Origin: Planctomycetota bacterium
GTDB taxonomy: Bacteria > Planctomycetota > Planctomycetia > Isosphaerales > Isosphaeraceae
Direction: 5' to 3'
Length of the DNA stretch: 64,000 bases
Assembly (NCBI GenBank): GCA_021791715.1
Contig: JAJYWB010000023.1
Coordinates: 1 to 64,000 of the forward strand
Made by a program: the position numbers and the translations under genes. Positions 2,287-11,425 of this stretch are shown here, piece by piece; the stretch's first letter is position 1; every line of letters starts with the position of its first letter. Under the pieces are notes generated by a model that searched no databases, was not told the DNA's origin, and saw nothing but the letters and a program-made list of their open reading frames with translations.

Positions 2287-3762
2287 ATGAAAAATGACTT
2301 GATATTGACGACTGGGGCGACGGGCTACATCGGCGGTCGGCTCGTTCCGCGGCTGTTGGAGAAAGGTTATCGCGTTCGATGCCTGGCGCGCGATCCGAAT
2401 CGTCTGCGGGGACGAAGCTGGGCGGACCGCGTCGAGATTGTCGCGGGGGATCTCCTCGAAGCCGAATCGCTTAAGCCGGCGCTCGAGGGATGCCGTTTCG
2501 CGTATTACCTGGTTCATTCGATGGGAGGGGGAGAGAAATCGTTTCGCGAGTTCGATCTCCGCTCGGCGCGCAACTTCGCCGAGGCCGCGGCTTCGGCGGG
2601 GCTCGAACGGATCGTCTATCTGGGAGGGCTCGGGAATCGAAACGAACAATTGTCTAAGCATTTATCGAGTCGGCACGAGGTCGGCGACGAGCTGCGCCGC
2701 GGGGCTGTTCCGACGACCGAGCTTCGCGCCGCGATGATTATCGGCTCGGGAAGCGCCTCGTTCGAGATGTTGAGGGCGCTCGTTCTTCGGCTCCCGGCGA
2801 TGATCTGTCCGCGGTGGGTGAATAATCGAACCCAACCGATCGCGATTCGAGACGTGCTTTTGTATCTGGTCGGTTGTCTGGAAAATCCCGCGACCTCGGG
2901 ACTCGTCCTCGATATCGGCGGTCCCGATATCCTTACATACAAAGACATGATGACGCGATTTGCCAAGATTCTGGGATTGCGGCGGTGGATTTTGGTGGTG
3001 CCGGTGTTGACCCCGCGATTATCGGCTTACTGGGCGAACATGGTGACTCCCGTCCCCGCTTCGATCGCGTTTCCTCTGATCGAGGGATTGCGATCGGAGA
3101 CGATCTGTGAGGATGATCGTATTCTCACGCTGGTTCCTTTGGAACGATTCGGCTTCGAGGAGGCGGTGATCGCGGCGCTCGACAGGGTTTTGCAGCGTCG
3201 GGTTGAAACGCGGTGGACGAACGCGAGTTTACGGAGCGTCGATCGTCGACCGATTCGGTTCGATCCCGCCGAATTTCCGATTCACGATCGCCTTGAAGTC
3301 GGATGCTCGGCTTCGAGCGAGGCGCTTTTCGATCGCGTTCGAAGGGTCGGCGGCGAGGTCGGCTGGTACTTCGCCGACGCGCTCTGGAAGATTCGAGGCT
3401 GGATGGATCGGCTGATCGGCGGGGTGGGATTGAGGCGCGGTCGCCGCGATCCAGAGAACGTATACGTAGGCGACGCGATCGATTTTTGGCGGGTCGAGGA
3501 TTTCGTTCCCGGTCGTCGTTTGTTGTTGCACGCCGAGATGAAAGTTCCCGGCGATGCCTGGCTCGAGTTCGTCGCCGAACCCGCGGGCGAAAGAGGCGAG
3601 CGATCGGTTCTTGTCCAAACGGCTTATTTTAGGCCGTCGCCGTTCTGGGGACGATTGTACTGGTACGTTCTTTATCCGATTCATCGCGTGATTTTCGACG
3701 GGATGGCGCGGTCGATCGCGGCGTCGGCGGAGCGGTTTCAGAAGTCGGACGTCCAGGAATGA
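2287..3762 (+). CDS. SDR-family NAD(P)-binding protein with C-terminal DUF2867 domain
   Basis: 491-aa two-domain protein. Residues 4-300 form an atypical short-chain dehydrogenase/epimerase Rossmann domain with the nucleotide-binding loop TGATGYIGG at about residues 9-17 and the NmrA-like pattern RCLARDP. Residues about 330-480 match the DUF2867 extension found fused to this class of SDR in many bacteria. The true substrate is unknown; relatives are annotated as NAD-dependent epimerase or oxidoreductase. The ATG is preceded by an AT-rich leader without a clear Shine-Dalgarno sequence. It is the only plus-strand gene between the Uma2 pair and 4157. Confidence 0.88.
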   Translation: MKNDLILTTGATGYIGGRLVPRLLEKGYRVRCLARDPNRLRGRSWADRVEIVAGDLLEAESLKPALEGCRFAYYLVHSMGGGEKSFREFDLRSARNFAEAAASAGLERIVYLGGLGNRNEQLSKHLSSRHEVGDELRRGAVPTTELRAAMIIGSGSASFEMLRALVLRLPAMICPRWVNNRTQPIAIRDVLLYLVGCLENPATSGLVLDIGGPDILTYKDMMTRFAKILGLRRWILVVPVLTPRLSAYWANMVTPVPASIAFPLIEGLRSETICEDDRILTLVPLERFGFEEAVIAALDRVLQRRVETRWTNASLRSVDRRPIRFDPAEFPIHDRLEVGCSASSEALFDRVRRVGGEVGWYFADALWKIRGWMDRLIGGVGLRRGRRDPENVYVGDAIDFWRVEDFVPGRRLLLHAEMKVPGDAWLEFVAEPAGERGERSVLVQTAYFRPSPFWGRLYWYVLYPIHRVIFDGMARSIAASAERFQKSDVQE

Positions 3763-4156: not shown

Positions 4157-5515
4157 ATGTCGGGAATCGATCGACGAGAGTTCGCCAGGCGATCGGCGAT
4201 GACGGGATTGGGAGGGATCGCGGCGTCGGTGTTCGCCTCGGGTCGTGTGATGGGGGCGGCGGATCGCGTACGTCTCGGCGTGATCGGAGTGGGGAATCGC
4301 GGCGATCAGGTGATCGACGCTTTTTTGCGCCATAAGGATTGCGAGATCATCGCGATCAGCGATCTTCACGAGCCGTATCTCGACGCCGCGAGCCGAAAGA
4401 TCGGCGGCGAACCTCAACGGTTCCACGATTATCGCAAGCTGCTCGATCTTAAGGAGGTCGACGCGGTCGTCGTCGCGACGCCCGATCACTGGCACGCTCT
4501 TCAAACGATTCACGCGTTTCAATCCGGCAAAGATGTATATGTGGAGAAGCCGCTCTCTTTGACGGTCGCGGAGGGGCGAAGGATGGCTGAAGCGGCGCGG
4601 CGGTACGATCGCGTGACGCAGGTGGGGATTATGCGGAGGTCGTCGCCGTATCATAAGGAAGCGGCCGAGATCGTTCGTTCGGGAGGGATCGGTCGCGTGA
4701 CGTTCGTTCGAGCGTTTCACCTGCGTAACGAATGGCCCAAGGGGATCGGTTCGTCCGCCGACGGCGATCCTCCCGCGGGTTTCGATTGGGATCGTTGGCT
4801 CGGGCCCGCGCCGCTGAAACGTTACAACAAGAATCGCACGTTTTATCGGTTTCGCTGGTTTTACGATTACTCGGGCGGGCAGTTGACGAATTTTGGGGTT
4901 CATTATTTGGATATGATTCATTGGGCGTTGGGACGCGATGCGCCTACGGCGGTCGCGGCGATGGGAGGGAAGTTCGCGATTCAGGATAATCGCGAGATTC
5001 CCGATACGCTTGAAGTGATCTGGCGGTATCCCGACGATACGCTCGTTACATTTACACAGATCAACACAAATGCCGCCGCGCCGGGAGCGAAACACGGCGA
5101 GATTGAATTTCGCGGAACGAAAGGGACGCTTTATGTGACGAACGGCGGCTATCAGGTCGTTCCGGAGGCGCTTTCGGCGAACGAGGTTCCCGCGCTCTCG
5201 CCGCTCGATCGTTCGCTCGAGCGCGGTCATAGGGCTGGAGCGAAGCCCGTGATTGAAGGGGTCGAGAAGAATTCCCCCGACGCGACGACGCTTCACGCGC
5301 GTAATTTCCTCGATTGCGTGAAGAGCCGAGAACGTTGTCATTGCGATATCGAGACGGGGCGGCGATCGACGAACGCGGCGCTCATCGGCAATATTGCGCT
5401 CAAAATGAACGCACTTCTCGAATGGGACGCCAAAGCGGAAAGGTTTACGAATCTCGAGGCGGCGAATAAACATCTTAGCTACACGTACCGAGCGCCTTAC
5501 GTTTTGCCCGAATGA
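4157..5515 (+). CDS. Tat-exported Gfo/Idh/MocA family oxidoreductase
   Basis: 452-aa NAD(P)-dependent sugar-type dehydrogenase. The N-terminus has a twin-arginine signal ([13 protein letters not shown], cleaved probably near VMGAA). A Rossmann motif GVGNRG follows at about residues 45-50, the family's catalytic EKP motif at about 130-132, and the C-terminal barrel half includes [15 protein letters not shown]. The ATG at 4157 is chosen over an upstream TTG at 4142 because it gives the usual Tat signal length and GGGA lies about 10 bases upstream. Planctomycetes carry many such exported paralogs. The substrate is unknown, presumably a sugar derivative. It stands alone, 108 bp before the sulfite oxidase operon. 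Confidence 0.9.
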
Positions 5516-5623: not shown

Positions 5624-6817
5624 ATGAATAGACGAGATTGGATTCGTGCGACGGCGGCGGCCGCGGCGGCGGGATTCGCGCCCGGCTTCGTGGGATGCGG
5701 CGTGCGAGAGTCTGGCTCGGGGGTCGATCCCGAGCCGACGGTGCGTTTTCCCGGCAAGGTCGAGATGCGGGTGATCAACGATCGTCCACCGTGCCTGGAA
5801 ACTCCGTGGCGATTTTATCGCGAGGATTTCACGCCCAATCACGCGTTTTACGTGCGCTGGCATTTACAAGCGTTTCCGACGTCGATCGATCTTGCGAGCT
5901 GGCGGCTGAGGATCGGCGGGAACGTGGAAAGGCCGCTCGAGCTTTCGATCGACGATCTCAAAAAGATGGATCGGACGACGATCGCCGCGGTCAACCAATG
6001 TTCGGGGAATTCTCGTTCGCTGTTTCAGCCGAGGGTTACGGGGGCGCAGTGGAGGAACGGCGCGATGGGAAACGCCAAATGGACGGGCGTTCGTCTCAGG
6101 GATTTGCTTAAGCGAGCGGGTTTGAAAGCGGGCGCGGTCGACGTCGTTTTCGACGGGCTCGACGAGGGGCCGTTGCCCGGCGTGCCCGATTTTCTCAAAT
6201 CGCTCAAGGCGGATCATGCGCTCGAGGCCGAGCCGCTCGTCGCTTTTGAGATGAACGGCGAGCCGCTTCCGGCGCTCAACGGTTTTCCCGCCAGGCTCGT
6301 TGTACCCGGCTGGTACGCCACGTATTGGGTTAAGGCGCTAACAAAAATTGAAGTTTGGGATAAATCATATGACGGCTATTGGATGGCGAAGGCTTATAAG
6401 ATTCCGGCGAACCCGCGCGCGAACGAATCGCCCGATCGACTCGACGCCAAAATTGAACCGATCAATCGTTTGAATGTTCGATCGTTCTTTACTTCACCCG
6501 ATCGCGGATCGATCGTCGTTTCGGGGACACCGATTACATTATCGGGAATCGCGTTCGACGGCGGGAGCGGGATCAAACGGGTGGAGGTTTCGTTTGACGA
6601 CGGTCGCACGTGGCGTGAAACGATGTTGGGAGAGGATCACGGACGGTTCTCGTTCCGCCGCTGGAAACTCGAATGGACGCCGACGGAGGCGGGAGAGCGT
6701 AAATTGCTGGTCCGCGCGACGAATCGGAGCGACGAGACGCAAACCGCCGATCCGATCTGGAATCGCGGAGGATTTATGCGTAACGTGATCGAATCGCTCG
6801 CGGTCGTCGTCGTGTAA
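5624..6817 (+). CDS. Sulfite oxidase-type molybdopterin oxidoreductase (SorA-like)
   Basis: 397-aa exported molybdoenzyme. Signal: MNRRDWIRAT followed by a run of alanines, i.e. twin-arginine, with FVGCG at 22-26 that could also serve as a lipobox. The catalytic oxidoreductase molybdopterin domain spans about 50-260, with the molybdenum-ligand cysteine at C126 in NQCSGNSR. The C-terminal Mo-co dimerisation (Ig-like) domain spans about 275-390. It probably oxidises sulfite, or a related substrate, in the periplasm and passes electrons to the cytochrome encoded 19 bp downstream. It heads a tight run SorA-like, SorB-like, oxidase, 42-aa peptide. Substrate specificity cannot be proved from sequence; sulfite is the family's best match. 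Confidence 0.88.
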   Translation: MNRRDWIRATAAAAAAGFAPGFVGCGVRESGSGVDPEPTVRFPGKVEMRVINDRPPCLETPWRFYREDFTPNHAFYVRWHLQAFPTSIDLASWRLRIGGNVERPLELSIDDLKKMDRTTIAAVNQCSGNSRSLFQPRVTGAQWRNGAMGNAKWTGVRLRDLLKRAGLKAGAVDVVFDGLDEGPLPGVPDFLKSLKADHALEAEPLVAFEMNGEPLPALNGFPARLVVPGWYATYWVKALTKIEVWDKSYDGYWMAKAYKIPANPRANESPDRLDAKIEPINRLNVRSFFTSPDRGSIVVSGTPITLSGIAFDGGSGIKRVEVSFDDGRTWRETMLGEDHGRFSFRRWKLEWTPTEAGERKLLVRATNRSDETQTADPIWNRGGFMRNVIESLAVVVV

Positions 6818-6836
6818 TTTGCTCAAGGATTTAAGA

Positions 6837-7226
6837 ATGAAAGAACGAATGAGGAACGCCGGCGGATTTCCGCTCGTCGCGACCGGGGCGCTGGGGATTC
6901 TGTCGGCGTGGGTCTCGTATCTGGGGGTGCGGGATTATTGGGATTCGTCGACGCCGAACGTTCCCGAGATCGTCGCGACGAACGTTTTATTACCTTATGA
7001 AGAGGTTCACATACCGGACGGGCCGAATCGCGTCGTTTTTCAAACTTCTTGCGTGATTTGTCATTCGCCGCGATTGATATTTGGACAGCCGACGATATCG
7101 GAGGCGAAATGGCTCGAGGTCGTGAATAAGATGGTCGCGACCTACGGCGCGCCGATTGAACCCGAGGACGAGCGTAAGATTGTCGCGTATCTGGTATCGG
7201 TTCAGGCCGATCGAGGTGATCGATGA
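6837..7226 (+). CDS. Membrane-anchored monohaem cytochrome c (SorB-like)
   Basis: 129-aa protein with one N-terminal hydrophobic segment (about 11-30) and one haem c site, CVICH at residues 72-76. The likely axial Met is in VNKMVATYG near 95. Size and position directly after the molybdoenzyme match the cytochrome subunit of SorAB-type sulfite dehydrogenases. The ATG at 6837 is chosen over TTG at 6819 because AAGGA lies 8 bases upstream. The stop codon overlaps the next start (ATGA at 7223-7226), so it is translationally coupled to the oxidase. It should pass electrons from the molybdoenzyme to the c-type haems of that oxidase. Confidence 0.85.
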   Translation: MKERMRNAGGFPLVATGALGILSAWVSYLGVRDYWDSSTPNVPEIVATNVLLPYEEVHIPDGPNRVVFQTSCVICHSPRLIFGQPTISEAKWLEVVNKMVATYGAPIEPEDERKIVAYLVSVQADRGDR

Positions 7227-9874
7227 ACGTTCGCACCGAAACGCGTTTGATCCGCGCCCACGCGATCGCGGCGCTCCTGGCGGTCGGCTACACGACTTTT
7301 TTGGGGCTGATGATCGCGATCAAGTTTCACGTTCCCGATTGGCTCGGGGGCGAGTCGTGGCTTACGTGGGGACGGTTACGATACGCGCACACGCAGGGAG
7401 TTTTCTTCGGCTGGTTGGGTAATGCTTTTTTGATGTTTTTATATTATGCCGTTCCGCGGCTCGCCGAACGGAATGTGACGAGCCGATCGCTCGGATACGC
7501 GATCTTTTTCGTCTGGAATTTCCTGGTGGTTTTGCCGGGCTGGGCTCTTGTTCAGATGGGGATCAGTCAACCGCTCGAATGGGCCGAGTTTCCGATTCCC
7601 GTCGACGCCGCGGTGATCGTCGCGTTTGTGTTCGCGTGCGTTCAATTCGTCGTCCCGCTGCTTCGATCAAAAATCTCCCATTTATATGTATCCGGTTGGT
7701 ATATCATGGGAGGGTTGATTTTCACGAGTCTCGCGTATCCGGTGGGCAATTTTGTTCCCGAGGTCGTTCCAGGTGCTCGGGGCGCGGCGTTCAGCGGGCT
7801 TTGGATTCACGATGCGATCGGCTTGTACGTCACTCCGCTCGCGCTCGCGATCGCGTATTTGGTGATTCCGATCTCGACGCGCAAGCCTATTTTTAGTCAT
7901 TTTCTCTCGATGATCGGTTTTTGGCTGCTGTTTTTGGTTTACCCGCTTAACGGAACGCATCATTATATTTTTTCTTCGATTCCGATGGAGGCGCAGAAGG
8001 GGGCGATCGTCGCTTCGGTTTACCTGGGGATGGACGTGATTTTGGTGGTCGCCAATCAGCTTCTCTCGTTGCGAGGTTCGGCGGCGAAGGTCGCTTCGGA
8101 CGCTCCGCTCCGGTTCGTGTGGGTCGGAGTCGTCTGTTATTTGATCGTCAGTCTTCAGGGTTCGCTCCAGGCGCTTATGCCTGTGAACCGATTTGTTCAT
8201 TTTAGCGATTGGGTGATCGCTCATGCGCATCTGGCTTTAATCGGTTTTGCTTCGTTCATCGCGATCGGCGGGATGTTGTTCGTTTGGAAGCGATTGGCGG
8301 GTTCGCGATACAATCCTCGCGCGGCTGATTGGGCGTTTTGGCTGCTCGCGATCGGGCTCGCGACGATGTTCCTTGACCTGACGATCGCGGGGCTCGTTCA
8401 GGCGCAATCGTGGTCGTCGCACGCTCCGTGGATCGATTCTGTTCGCGCGTCGCGACCTTATTGGATCGTTCGGTCGTTCTCGGGAGGAGCGATCATTTTG
8501 GCGTTCGTCGCGGTCGCGTTAAGCATGACGACGGGCGCGAGGGTGGAGGCCGAATCCGCCGTCGAGAACGAACCGAGCTCCGACGAGGCCGTGGCGGCTA
8601 TCGTAGGCGAGGACGAGTCCGAAACCGAATCGGACGTTCCGCGGGGTTTAAAAATCCTCACGCATTCTTATGTAGTTATTAGTATCGCGGGTTTGGCGTT
8701 TTTCGCGCTTTCGTTTTTGGTTTTGGCGGTTTTACCCAATCGAAGATTGGCGGACGAGATCGCTCGATCGCGGCCGATCGGCGGGCGGGGGCTTTCGGCG
8801 GCGGAGGCTCGAGGTCGCGCCGTTTACATACGCGAAGGTTGTGTGAATTGTCATTCGCAGTTCGTTCGGTTCGTCGAAGACGACGTCCGTCGGTTTGGAA
8901 TCGCGACCAGGGCTTGGGAGGCGGAACAGGATTCGCCTCAATTGTGGGGTACGAGGCGAGTCGGCCCCGATCTGGCGCGTGAACACGGCAAAAGATCGCT
9001 TGATTGGCATTTGGTGCATCTGTGGAATCCGCGTTACGTTGTTCCCGAATCGCCGATGCCGGGATATCGGAATCTTTTTGATGGATCGCCGAGTGCGCCG
9101 CGGCGCGAAGCGTACGATTTGGCGGCGTATCTCGAATCGCTTGGTCGCGAGGCTCATCTCGCGGGTTTGACTGGGCCTCAGCCTCTTCCTGGAGTCGACC
9201 CGAACGACGAGAAGCGGAAGGGGATGTTTTGCGATTGCGCGATTCCGCGGTCGATCGGCGCGGCGCCGGTTTTTTCGACTCGAGGGCTTGAAGCGAGCGA
9301 ACGTGAGCGATTCGCTCGATCGGGCGCCGAATCGTTCGAGCGGAATTGCGCGGGCTGCCACGGAGAGCGAGGCCGGGGCGACGGTCCCGCCGCGGTCGCG
9401 CTCTTGCCGCGGCCGCGCGATTTAACTTCGGCGCGTTTTTCCGATCGAACGATCGGCGAGGTTTTATGGAACGGTTCGAGGGGTTCGTCGATGCCGGCTT
9501 GGAACGAACTTCCGAGCGAGGAACTTCGCGGACTGACCGCGTTTGTTGGATCTTTATATAATCAAAAATCTGAACAAAAAGACTCTCCGTTACGAGTCGA
9601 CGAGGTCGCGAGGGCGCGGGGGTTGTTCGCGGCGAATTGCGTGGTGTGTCATGGTAAAGAGGGCGCGGGCGACGGGATATCGGCGACGAACCTGGCGCCG
9701 GCGCCTTCGAATTTCCATCGGATCGAGCCGACGCTCGGATACGCCGAGGGGGCGATCGAGCGAGGCGTACCGGGGACGGCGATGCCGACTTGGCGGGATA
9801 AACTTAAAGCGGAAGATCGTGCTTTGCTCGCGCGTTATGTTCGAACGCTTTTTCAACCGATCGAGAAGGATTGA
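7223..9874 (+). CDS. Single-chain cbb3-type cytochrome c oxidase: CcoN + CcoO + two cytochrome c domains
   Basis: 883-aa fusion. Residues 1-440 are a haem-copper oxidase subunit I: low-spin haem ligands H56 and H336/H334 (in HAHLALIG), CuB ligands H196, H246 and H247, and a Tyr at 240. The distances H196 to Y240 (44), to H246 (50) and to H334 (138) equal those I recall for Pseudomonas CcoN (H207, Y251, H257, H345), so the cross-linked Tyr is kept. Residues 480-640 are CcoO-like: one membrane helix, haem c site CVNCH (540-544) and Met ligand in PESPMPGY (612). Residues 690-883 hold two more haem sites, CAGCH (709-713) with M757 and CVVCH (806-810) with M854. An acidic linker lies at 440-475. 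It should reduce O2 at the membrane with electrons from the upstream cytochrome. Confidence 0.92.
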   Translation: MNVRTETRLIRAHAIAALLAVGYTTFLGLMIAIKFHVPDWLGGESWLTWGRLRYAHTQGVFFGWLGNAFLMFLYYAVPRLAERNVTSRSLGYAIFFVWNFLVVLPGWALVQMGISQPLEWAEFPIPVDAAVIVAFVFACVQFVVPLLRSKISHLYVSGWYIMGGLIFTSLAYPVGNFVPEVVPGARGAAFSGLWIHDAIGLYVTPLALAIAYLVIPISTRKPIFSHFLSMIGFWLLFLVYPLNGTHHYIFSSIPMEAQKGAIVASVYLGMDVILVVANQLLSLRGSAAKVASDAPLRFVWVGVVCYLIVSLQGSLQALMPVNRFVHFSDWVIAHAHLALIGFASFIAIGGMLFVWKRLAGSRYNPRAADWAFWLLAIGLATMFLDLTIAGLVQAQSWSSHAPWIDSVRASRPYWIVRSFSGGAIILAFVAVALSMTTGARVEAESAVENEPSSDEAVAAIVGEDESETESDVPRGLKILTHSYVVISIAGLAFFALSFLVLAVLPNRRLADEIARSRPIGGRGLSAAEARGRAVYIREGCVNCHSQFVRFVEDDVRRFGIATRAWEAEQDSPQLWGTRRVGPDLAREHGKRSLDWHLVHLWNPRYVVPESPMPGYRNLFDGSPSAPRREAYDLAAYLESLGREAHLAGLTGPQPLPGVDPNDEKRKGMFCDCAIPRSIGAAPVFSTRGLEASERERFARSGAESFERNCAGCHGERGRGDGPAAVALLPRPRDLTSARFSDRTIGEVLWNGSRGSSMPAWNELPSEELRGLTAFVGSLYNQKSEQKDSPLRVDEVARARGLFAANCVVCHGKEGAGDGISATNLAPAPSNFHRIEPTLGYAEGAIERGVPGTAMPTWRDKLKAEDRALLARYVRTLFQPIEKD

Positions 9875-9879
9875 TTCCG

Positions 9880-10008
9880 ATGGCGATCAATTGGATTATG
9901 ACGGCGATCACGGCGATGATGATCGGTTTCACGATCTTGTGGTCGCTCGGCGGCGAGACGAGGCGACGGATCGAGGCGCCGAAATATCGTCCGCTCAAAT
10001 GGAAATAA
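9880..10008 (+). CDS. 42-aa single-span membrane peptide, candidate oxidase subunit
   Basis: Short ORF beginning 5 bp after the oxidase stop codon, with GAAGGA about 9 bases upstream of its ATG. The product starts MAINWIMTAITAMMIGF, has one predicted membrane helix (about 5-23) and a basic tail ending PKYRPLKWK. Position and topology resemble CcoQ, the tiny subunit encoded between ccoO and ccoP in classical cbb3 operons, but I recognise no sequence signature; a role in oxidase assembly or stability is inferred from context. Confidence 0.6.
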   Translation: MAINWIMTAITAMMIGFTILWSLGGETRRRIEAPKYRPLKWK

Positions 10009-10159
10009 GAACGATTATCGATCTTGATTTTCCCGAGTCGAGTCGCCTTGAAGGCGGATCGCACGGATCGGTTCGGTTACGATCTTATGGTCGTTCGATC
10101 GGCGCGGGTCGGGCGTTCGTTCCCGCGGCGAAGAGCAAGATACATTGAGGAATACGCAC

Positions 10160-11425
10160 TTGAGCGAAGAGCGATCGATCATCCGGATCGTGGGGATCGG
10201 CGACGACGGGCTCGCGGGTCTGACCGAATCGGCGCGGCGGATCTTGGCCGAGGCCGATGTTTTACTGGCTTCGGCGGGAACGCTCGAGTTGCTGGGCTCG
10301 CTTCCGGGCAAGAAGGTGGCGCTCGCCGCCGAGATGCGCGACGCGGTGAAGCAGGTTTTGGAGATCGAACGATCGCGTCGACCGGTGCTGGTGACGGGGG
10401 GCGATCCGCTGTTTTACGGCGTCGCTCGATATTTGTGCGACCGACTGGGGAAGGATCGGTTCGAGGTCGTGCCGCATGTCAGCAGCATGCAGCTCGCGTT
10501 CGCGCGGATCAAAGAGAGCTGGGAAGACGCGTATCTGACGAACCTCGCGGGTCGACCGCTCGAAACCGTCGTCGATCGAATCCGCACGGCAGAAAAAGTC
10601 GGCATGTTTTCAAGTGATGAATGTTCGCCCGCGGTCGTGGCTCGCGCCCTGCTTGATCGCGGGATCGATTATTTTCGCGGTTATGTGTGCGAGAATTTGG
10701 GCTCTCCCGACGAGCGAGTGACGCAGGGGGAGCTCGGCGAGATCGCCGGGCTTGATTTCGCACCTTTGAATGTGATGATATTGGTTCGGAAGCCGAATCG
10801 TCCCGATCGCGCCGGTCGCGTCGGCCGGTATCGATTATTCGGGAATCCCGACGACGTTTTCGCGCAGAGCAAGCCCAAACGGGGGTTGATCACCCAGGCC
10901 GAGGTACGCGCAATCGCGCTTTCGCAATTGGATATTAGGCCGACGAGCGTCGTTTGGGACGTCGGCGCGGGTTCGGGGTCGGTCGCGATCGAGGCGGCGC
11001 AGTTGGCGAATCAGGGGATGGTTTACGCGATCGAGCCCGAGCCCGGCGATTTGGCGTTGATTCAGGCGAACGCCGAGGCGTTCGGCGTGCCGAACGTTCG
11101 GCCGATCGCGGGGAGGGCGCCCGAGGCTCTCGCGGGCTTGCCCGATCCCGACGCGATTTTTGTCGGCGGCACGGGTCGCCGGGTCGACGCGGTTTTGCGA
11201 GCGACTTTCGATCGCTTGAATCCCGGCGGCAAGCTTGCTGTTAACGTTGCGACGATCGACGGATTGGCGGCTTCGATCGCGACGTTGAAGGAGCTCGCGG
11301 GGCGTGTCGACGTTTGGAACGTGGCGATTTCGCGGGGGATCGAGCAGATGGATCGCGTCCGATTCGAGGCTGTGAACCCGACTTTTCTGCTCGCCGTGAT
11401 TAAGAATCCGCCGCCGACCGATTAA
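10160..11425 (+). CDS. cobL: Precorrin-6Y C5,15-methyltransferase (CbiE-CbiT fusion)
   Basis: 421-aa bifunctional enzyme of cobalamin (corrin) biosynthesis. It methylates precorrin-6B/cobalt-precorrin at C5 and C15 using SAM and decarboxylates the acetate side chain. N-terminal CbiE domain about 1-200 (GIGDDGL, SMQLAFARI, ENLGSPDERV); C-terminal CbiT domain about 215-421 with the SAM motif DVGAGSGSVAIEAA and GGTGRR. A TTG start at 10160 is preferred because GAGGAA lies 8 bases upstream; an in-frame TTG at 10145 is the alternative. No other corrin gene and no B12 riboswitch is visible in the window, so it is isolated from its pathway here. Confidence 0.9.
   Translation: MSEERSIIRIVGIGDDGLAGLTESARRILAEADVLLASAGTLELLGSLPGKKVALAAEMRDAVKQVLEIERSRRPVLVTGGDPLFYGVARYLCDRLGKDRFEVVPHVSSMQLAFARIKESWEDAYLTNLAGRPLETVVDRIRTAEKVGMFSSDECSPAVVARALLDRGIDYFRGYVCENLGSPDERVTQGELGEIAGLDFAPLNVMILVRKPNRPDRAGRVGRYRLFGNPDDVFAQSKPKRGLITQAEVRAIALSQLDIRPTSVVWDVGAGSGSVAIEAAQLANQGMVYAIEPEPGDLALIQANAEAFGVPNVRPIAGRAPEALAGLPDPDAIFVGGTGRRVDAVLRATFDRLNPGGKLAVNVATIDGLAASIATLKELAGRVDVWNVAISRGIEQMDRVRFEAVNPTFLLAVIKNPPPTD

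Follow-up and report, generated by a model that had tools for sequence, protein, structure and literature searches.

Gene organisation of the locus

The locus described here lies in a 64,000-nucleotide stretch (hereafter, the window) at positions 1–64,000 of contig JAJYWB010000023.1, from the genome of a planctomycete affiliated with Isosphaeraceae (assembly GCA_021791715.1). Four genes on the plus strand form a tight operon (5624–10008) in the order SorA-like protein, SorB-like protein, oxidase and a membrane protein of 42 amino acids (aa). The third gene had previously been described, from the sequence alone, as a complete cbb3-type oxidase in a single polypeptide; the operon context was absent from that original prediction. 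The features of the operon are as follows.

5624–6817, plus strand: catalytic subunit of a SorA-like molybdenum sulfite dehydrogenase (Pfam Oxidored_molyb, E 2e-56, and Mo-co_dimer)
6837–7226, plus strand: SorB-like mono-haem cytochrome c, with one CxxCH and one hydrophobic segment (N-terminal membrane anchor or signal)
7223–9874, plus strand: putative single-chain CcoN-CcoO-(cytochrome c)2 oxygen reductase, 883 aa, stop-free open frame
7247–8485, plus strand: CcoN-like domain, residues 9–421, with 12 predicted membrane helices, ligands of haem b, haem b3 and CuB, and Y240; Q312 replaces E323
8555–8641, plus strand: acidic linker, residues about 445–473, with 445–472 a low-confidence loop in the structure model; matches the ccoN/ccoOP gene boundary of two-gene relatives
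8642–9082, plus strand: CcoO-like domain, a membrane helix (474–516 in the model) and a mono-haem cytochrome c with C540xxCH and M612
9221–9247, plus strand: MFCDCAIPR linker motif, residues about 667–675, between the CcoO and cytochrome c domains; 667–677 form a low-confidence loop in the model
9314–9850, plus strand: two CcoP-like cytochrome c domains, residues 698–775 and 796–876, without the CcoP membrane helix
9880–10008, plus strand: small single-helix membrane protein, 42 aa (MAINWIMTAITAMMIGFTILWSLGGETRRRIEAPKYRPLKWK), directly after the oxidase; CcoQ-like in position and topology

The best PDB match of the SorA-like protein was SorA of Starkeya novella (2blf, E 5e-108, with the NQCSGNSR motif aligned), its closest solved relative, and its score against the NCBIfam SorA model NF052245 was 505 bits (cut-off 600). 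Two motifs were recognised by eye at its N-terminus, RRDW, which is twin-arginine-like, and FVGC, which resembles a lipobox. The SorB-like protein matched the NCBIfam SorB model NF052246 (E 4e-17; 62 bits against a cut-off of 93). Its stop codon overlaps the oxidase start by four bases (ATGA, 7223–7226), and an alternative upstream TTG start at 6819 is possible. The pair resembles the S. novella enzyme in having a SorB-family cytochrome partner, but in the window the SorAB genes are directly joined to an oxidase gene and SorB appears to be membrane-anchored.

Domain structure of the fused oxidase and its small partner

Pfam identified a COX1 domain in the 883-aa protein (residues 9–421, E 8e-61; 207–209 bits against a cut-off of 34.8), a FixO domain (502–620, E 8e-36) and cytochrome c domains at 698–775 and 796–876. 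Each of the three CxxCH motifs (540–544, 709–713 and 806–810) has one Met (612, 757 and 854), and these are kept in all 45 aligned full-length members of the clade to which the protein belongs (see below). The prediction that CcoN, CcoO and two further cytochrome c domains are joined in one intact frame, with three c-type haem sites, was thus borne out. A sequencing artefact or a chance frame was ruled out by more than 40 homologues, because full-length one-frame homologues (ca. 46%–87% identity) are present in independent genomes. The COX1 domain and the conserved haem and CuB histidines place the predicted protein in the haem-copper oxidase superfamily.

A structure model built from 26 homologues (mean predicted local distance difference test score 78.5, predicted template modelling score 0.78) contained 12 membrane helices in the CcoN part, one in the CcoO part and none later. 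The best solved fold matches were cbb3 CcoN chains, with template modelling (TM) scores of 0.85–0.88 of the target and E of ca. 1e-18 (0.88 for Pseudomonas stutzeri, 3mk7), ahead of nitric oxide (NO) reductases (TM 0.81–0.82, E ca. 1e-9). Neither hydropathy nor the model indicated the N-terminal membrane helix of CcoP after residue 516. On this predicted topology, the description "complete in one polypeptide" goes too far, since the chain lacks the CcoP membrane helix and a small partner is encoded separately.

Two linkers had been singled out as unexplained. The acidic linker varies in length and sequence among clade members and is a gene boundary in two-gene relatives; it is therefore a variable junction that needs no special function, and a conserved role was ruled out. 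The FCDCAIPR-type CxC of the MFCDCAIP stretch is kept in the planctomycete members of the clade, and only in these (13 of 45 aligned). Other CxC motifs occur at that linker in Obscuribacterales and some Acidobacteriota, and the aligned proteobacterial members have no CxC there. This lineage restriction ruled out a universal cofactor site; a metal or disulfide site is possible.

The previously unannotated 42-aa protein has one hydrophobic segment and an EAPKYR-type tail. A homologue was found 3′ of the oxidase, in the same orientation and mostly no more than tens of bases away, in all 47 loci with downstream sequence, by means of a profile from 11 seed loci (36 of the 47 matches were non-seed and 34 were not identical to any seed). 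The same profile reached at most 21.6 bits in the control loci, which belong to other divergent branches of the C type. For the small protein, no family model of Pfam or NCBIfam exceeded its cut-off, and a FixQ match (E 0.007) appeared in one member only. In hhalign comparisons with small samples of each family, the small protein gave a weak match to CcoQ (79%); CcoS, considered for the EAPKYR-like tail, was less favoured because of its weaker profile match (26%).

Active site and relation to cbb3 oxidases

The alignment to P. stutzeri CcoN (PDB 3mk7) was ungapped, with a constant offset of 11, from H196 to beyond H336 (H196/H207, Y240/Y251, H246/H257, H247/H258, H334/H345 and H336/H347). The spacing of these residues, which the original prediction had given as equal to that of P. 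stutzeri, was accordingly correct. All the haem and copper ligands said to be visible were also aligned and conserved. Y240, H246 and H247 occur in 45 of 45 members, and the helix-VII Tyr sits six residues before the HH pair, as in cbb3 (C-family) oxidases.

Active O2 reduction had been expected from this site. The expectation held with respect to enzyme type, but two substitutions in the same alignment had been missed, namely Q312 for P. stutzeri E323 and G192 for W203. Gln occupies the E323 position in 45 of 45 aligned full-length clade members, whereas Glu was present in all 12 canonical sequences and in one further, partial clade member (L069). The replacement of Trp203 by Gly is shared with the nearest sister branches of the clade. 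The active-site Glu is described as mandatory in authentic cbb3 enzymes in PMC5492636, which cites Muntyan 2015. The clade offers a natural way to find out whether O2 reduction or proton pumping depends on the carboxylate of E323.

Since cbb3-type enzymes and NO reductases are related, and NO reductase structures were the second-best fold match, the protein could instead be an NO reductase or an enzyme mainly for NO/O2 detoxification during sulfur oxidation. Y240 and the HH pair are, however, present in all members, the Pfam and NCBIfam models matched by the protein included no NO reductase family (the first domain being COX1), and the NO reductase 3o0r was reached by sequence only at E 0.09. 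An NO reductase was ruled out by the active-site Tyr, the hidden Markov models and the fold, and we consider this alternative as a whole the most improbable of those weighed here, although a part in O2 scavenging is conceivable.

The shared fold and ligands, together with the existence of canonical planctomycete CcoNO fusions, are compatible with a canonical cbb3 oxidase whose subunits are merely fused. Against this stand a fully supported branch apart from canonical CcoN, Gln in place of the mandatory Glu, Gly in place of Trp203, the absence of the CcoP membrane helix and scores of 191, 114 and 55 bits with the NCBIfam ccoN, ccoO and ccoP models, all below the curated cut-offs (583, 201 and 180). 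These make a canonical enzyme very improbable, and the classification as a complete cbb3-type oxidase was not upheld. The protein shares with canonical CcoNOQP (3mk7) the fold of CcoN, the ligands of haem and CuB, the active-site Tyr, a mono-haem CcoO and two haems of the CcoP type, but CcoN identity is only ca. 25% and the subunits are fused next to sulfur dehydrogenase genes. Because of its separate branch, the Gln at the E323 position and the low family scores, the predicted protein is classified here as a C-family-like oxygen reductase outside canonical cbb3; the best inference is that it works like a cbb3 oxidase.

Phylogeny and fusion state

Scanning of named genomes with two peptide patterns from the CcoN part yielded 51 relatives, and the same fusion was found in several phyla. 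One-gene CcoN-O-P fusions occurred in Planctomycetota, Acidobacteriota, Obscuribacterales/Melainabacteria and some Pseudomonadota, and two-gene forms (ccoN and a three-haem ccoO-c-c) in Paraburkholderia, Acetobacter, Komagataeibacter, Pseudomonas, Hydrogenophilales and some Acidobacteriota. In two trees, the clade sat on a long stem (SH-aLRT 100) within a Gln-rich group that includes neither canonical CcoN nor the widespread planctomycete CcoNO fusions. Both trees gave full support to its monophyly and to its separation from canonical CcoN; they were quick searches with some long branches, and deep relations inside the Gln-rich group are tentative. A careful, supported tree of 35 full-length rows requires a minimum of two donor changes and three shifts in fusion state.

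The common planctomycete CcoNO fusions (NCBIfam PRK14485 type, ca. 710–820 aa, one CxxCH) also join CcoN to CcoO, but belong to the canonical E323 CcoN; their CcoN-CcoO fusion therefore looks independent. Descent of the window protein from such a fusion was ruled out by the tree and residue 312.

The single-chain CcoN-O-P architecture itself is not new. A 954-aa protein in which the three cbb3 subunits are fused was reported from Nitrospina gracilis in 2013 (PMC3578206) and cited again in 2024 (PMC10839748). Like the window protein, it is the product of a single gene that includes all three parts (CcoN, CcoO and CcoP), carries three c-haems and has Gly for Trp203. It differs in having His202 and Tyr208, common to Sinorhizobium (PMC3578206), where the clade has Ser191 and Asp197. 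Sinorhizobium and Rhizobium sequences with this signature (FHGLYLHY, FHGLYIHY) were placed within the Gln-rich group, yet not in the clade of the window protein (SGLWIHD). With these sequences as stand-ins for Nitrospina, the result indirectly suggests that the Nitrospina lineage also lies outside the clade. Some Nitrospinia genomes also encode SorAB (PMC10839748).

The source genome, a 6.5 Mb draft of 145 contigs, contains five COX1 genes, and only that at 7223–9874 belongs to the clade. Two more CcoN-like genes, likewise divergent and with CcoO encoded separately, were noted on contigs G000:C64 (L002) and G000:C125 (L003), the latter near a weak FixS/CcoS-like match. The distribution of the locus is patchy in the window's own family, as it was present in a same-genus relative and absent from most others sampled. 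In another genome of this family, G409, only the ccoO-P part and the small gene were present (L181:2486–4236), and the 8 kb surveyed contained nothing matching CcoN or SorAB; an ORF at 4702–5433 looked transposase-like by eye. This fragment is possibly a relic or a misassembly. In Pseudomonas khorasanensis (L078:7941–9387), the clade ccoN is spread over three overlapping frames next to open SorA and SorB frames, and this copy looks broken.

Association with sulfur dehydrogenases

Among the 51 relatives, 32 had SorA and/or SorB upstream of the oxidase and 16 had an adjoining TsdA-like gene; none had both. The remaining three loci end at contig edges, so that the association was found in 48 of 48 decidable loci, although near-copies (e.g., those of Acetobacter and Komagataeibacter, and L063/L082) mean that 48 is not a count of independent events. 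Two representatives of the TsdA-like proteins matched the solved thiosulfate dehydrogenases 4v2k, 4wq7 and 5lo9 at E 1e-40 or better; in the window, SorAB stands in place of this clear homologue. In contrast, none of 20 control loci from other divergent C-type branches (ca. 8 kb flanks) had a SorA, SorB or TsdA match of > 60 bits.

In one proteobacterial branch the TsdA-like gene precedes the oxidase, whereas in the Acidobacteriota/Woeseia branch it follows the oxidase, indicating separate recruitment. Because of this difference in position and the changes of donor and fusion state on the tree, the association appears to have been re-formed and not merely inherited. These patterns are best explained by the oxidase being the constant part and the sulfur enzyme, SorAB or TsdA-like, the exchangeable one, and suggest that the clade oxidases are devoted to the oxidation of sulfur compounds.

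RefSeq plasmids of Paraburkholderia fungorum and Acetobacter ascendens carry the cluster as a cytochrome c, a TsdA-like gene, ccoN, ccoO-c-c and a small ORF, annotated only as c-type cytochromes and cbb3 subunits. These loci (L137:1–3857 and L138:1798–4222) also contain DsrE-family and solute-binding proteins, with YeeE/YedE in Paraburkholderia, which suggests that they are part of a larger sulfur-compound island. PADLOC gave no match.

The sulfur dehydrogenase neighbour could be merely co-regulated with a general high-affinity terminal oxidase that draws on the cytochrome pool (complex III or alternative complex III). Soluble or anchored cytochromes normally feed cbb3 enzymes, and the three c-haems are retained in the chain. 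However, a SorAB or TsdA gene in every decidable locus, re-formed more than once and absent from all controls, counts against this reading, and the patchy distribution at genus and family level, together with the four other COX1 genes in the genome, fits an accessory rather than a main oxidase. A general oxidase is therefore considered unlikely.

Proposed electron transfer

We consider it probable that the operon at 5624–10008 encodes a dedicated sulfite:oxygen electron-transfer unit with a C-family-like O2 reductase. In the periplasm, SorA would use its molybdenum cofactor to convert sulfite into sulfate and pass electrons to SorB, which is probably membrane-anchored. From SorB, either directly or through a soluble cytochrome, electrons could reach the two C-terminal cytochrome c domains. 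They would then move on to the CcoO-like haem and, within the CcoN-like domain, to haem b and finally the haem b3-CuB site, at which O2 would be reduced to water. The small downstream protein might serve as a CcoQ-like subunit or an assembly factor. In the wider clade, the same type of oxidase would be paired with a sulfite (SorAB) or a thiosulfate (TsdA-like) dehydrogenase. What the analysis shows directly is the sequence with its domains and ligands, the order of the genes, their conservation and phylogeny, and the association; the substrates, every electron-transfer step, direct coupling, proton pumping and the effect of the E323-to-Gln replacement are what we infer.

Several points weigh against this scheme. 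Gene adjacency is not proof of direct electron transfer, and the oxidase may take electrons from other cytochromes. Loss of the active-site Glu could change or lower activity. The SorA and SorB scores are under the NCBIfam equivalog cut-offs, although the best family and structure matches are still SorA and SorB. Finally, the pattern-based list of relatives is not an unbiased sample, and the source genome is a 92%-complete draft.

More broadly, the clade might represent a distinct C-type-like subfamily, marked by Gln in place of E323, a CcoO-P module with three haems but no CcoP membrane helix, and a new small subunit, that forms the fixed acceptor half of sulfite:O2 or thiosulfate:O2 units bypassing the quinone pool and complex III. 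With its exchangeable sulfur dehydrogenases, it would be spread in Planctomycetota, Acidobacteriota, Obscuribacterales and Pseudomonadota, including on plasmids. We regard this generalisation as evenly balanced. Where clade genes are annotated at present, they are labelled plainly as "cbb3-type cytochrome c oxidase subunit I/II", a name implying respiration at low oxygen that is fed by the general cytochrome pool. Should the association prove functional, these genes would instead mark sulfite or thiosulfate oxidation coupled directly to O2 in organisms rarely deemed sulfur oxidisers, such as soil Acidobacteriota, Obscuribacterales, Planctomycetes and, via plasmids, acetic acid bacteria. The clade and its gene context appear to be new, the features of most interest being the pairing with a sulfite or thiosulfate dehydrogenase throughout the clade, the replacement by Gln and the small gene present in every locus with downstream sequence. 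A literature search turned up no account of an oxidase clade linked to SorAB or TsdA, but it missed most subscription journals, so that this is weak evidence.

Other genes in the window

The next gene after the operon (10145–11425, plus strand) encodes a tetrapyrrole methylase fused to a second methyltransferase domain, a CobL-like arrangement. Upstream, two tandem, closely similar 187-aa ORFs with a common start (MSTASTTTEP.LTAEQYAELADSGRLDELVRGRIVPV) lie on the minus strand at 829–1392 and 1441–2004 and represent an apparent recent duplication. At 2287–3762 on the plus strand, an NAD(P)-binding domain is fused to DUF2867.

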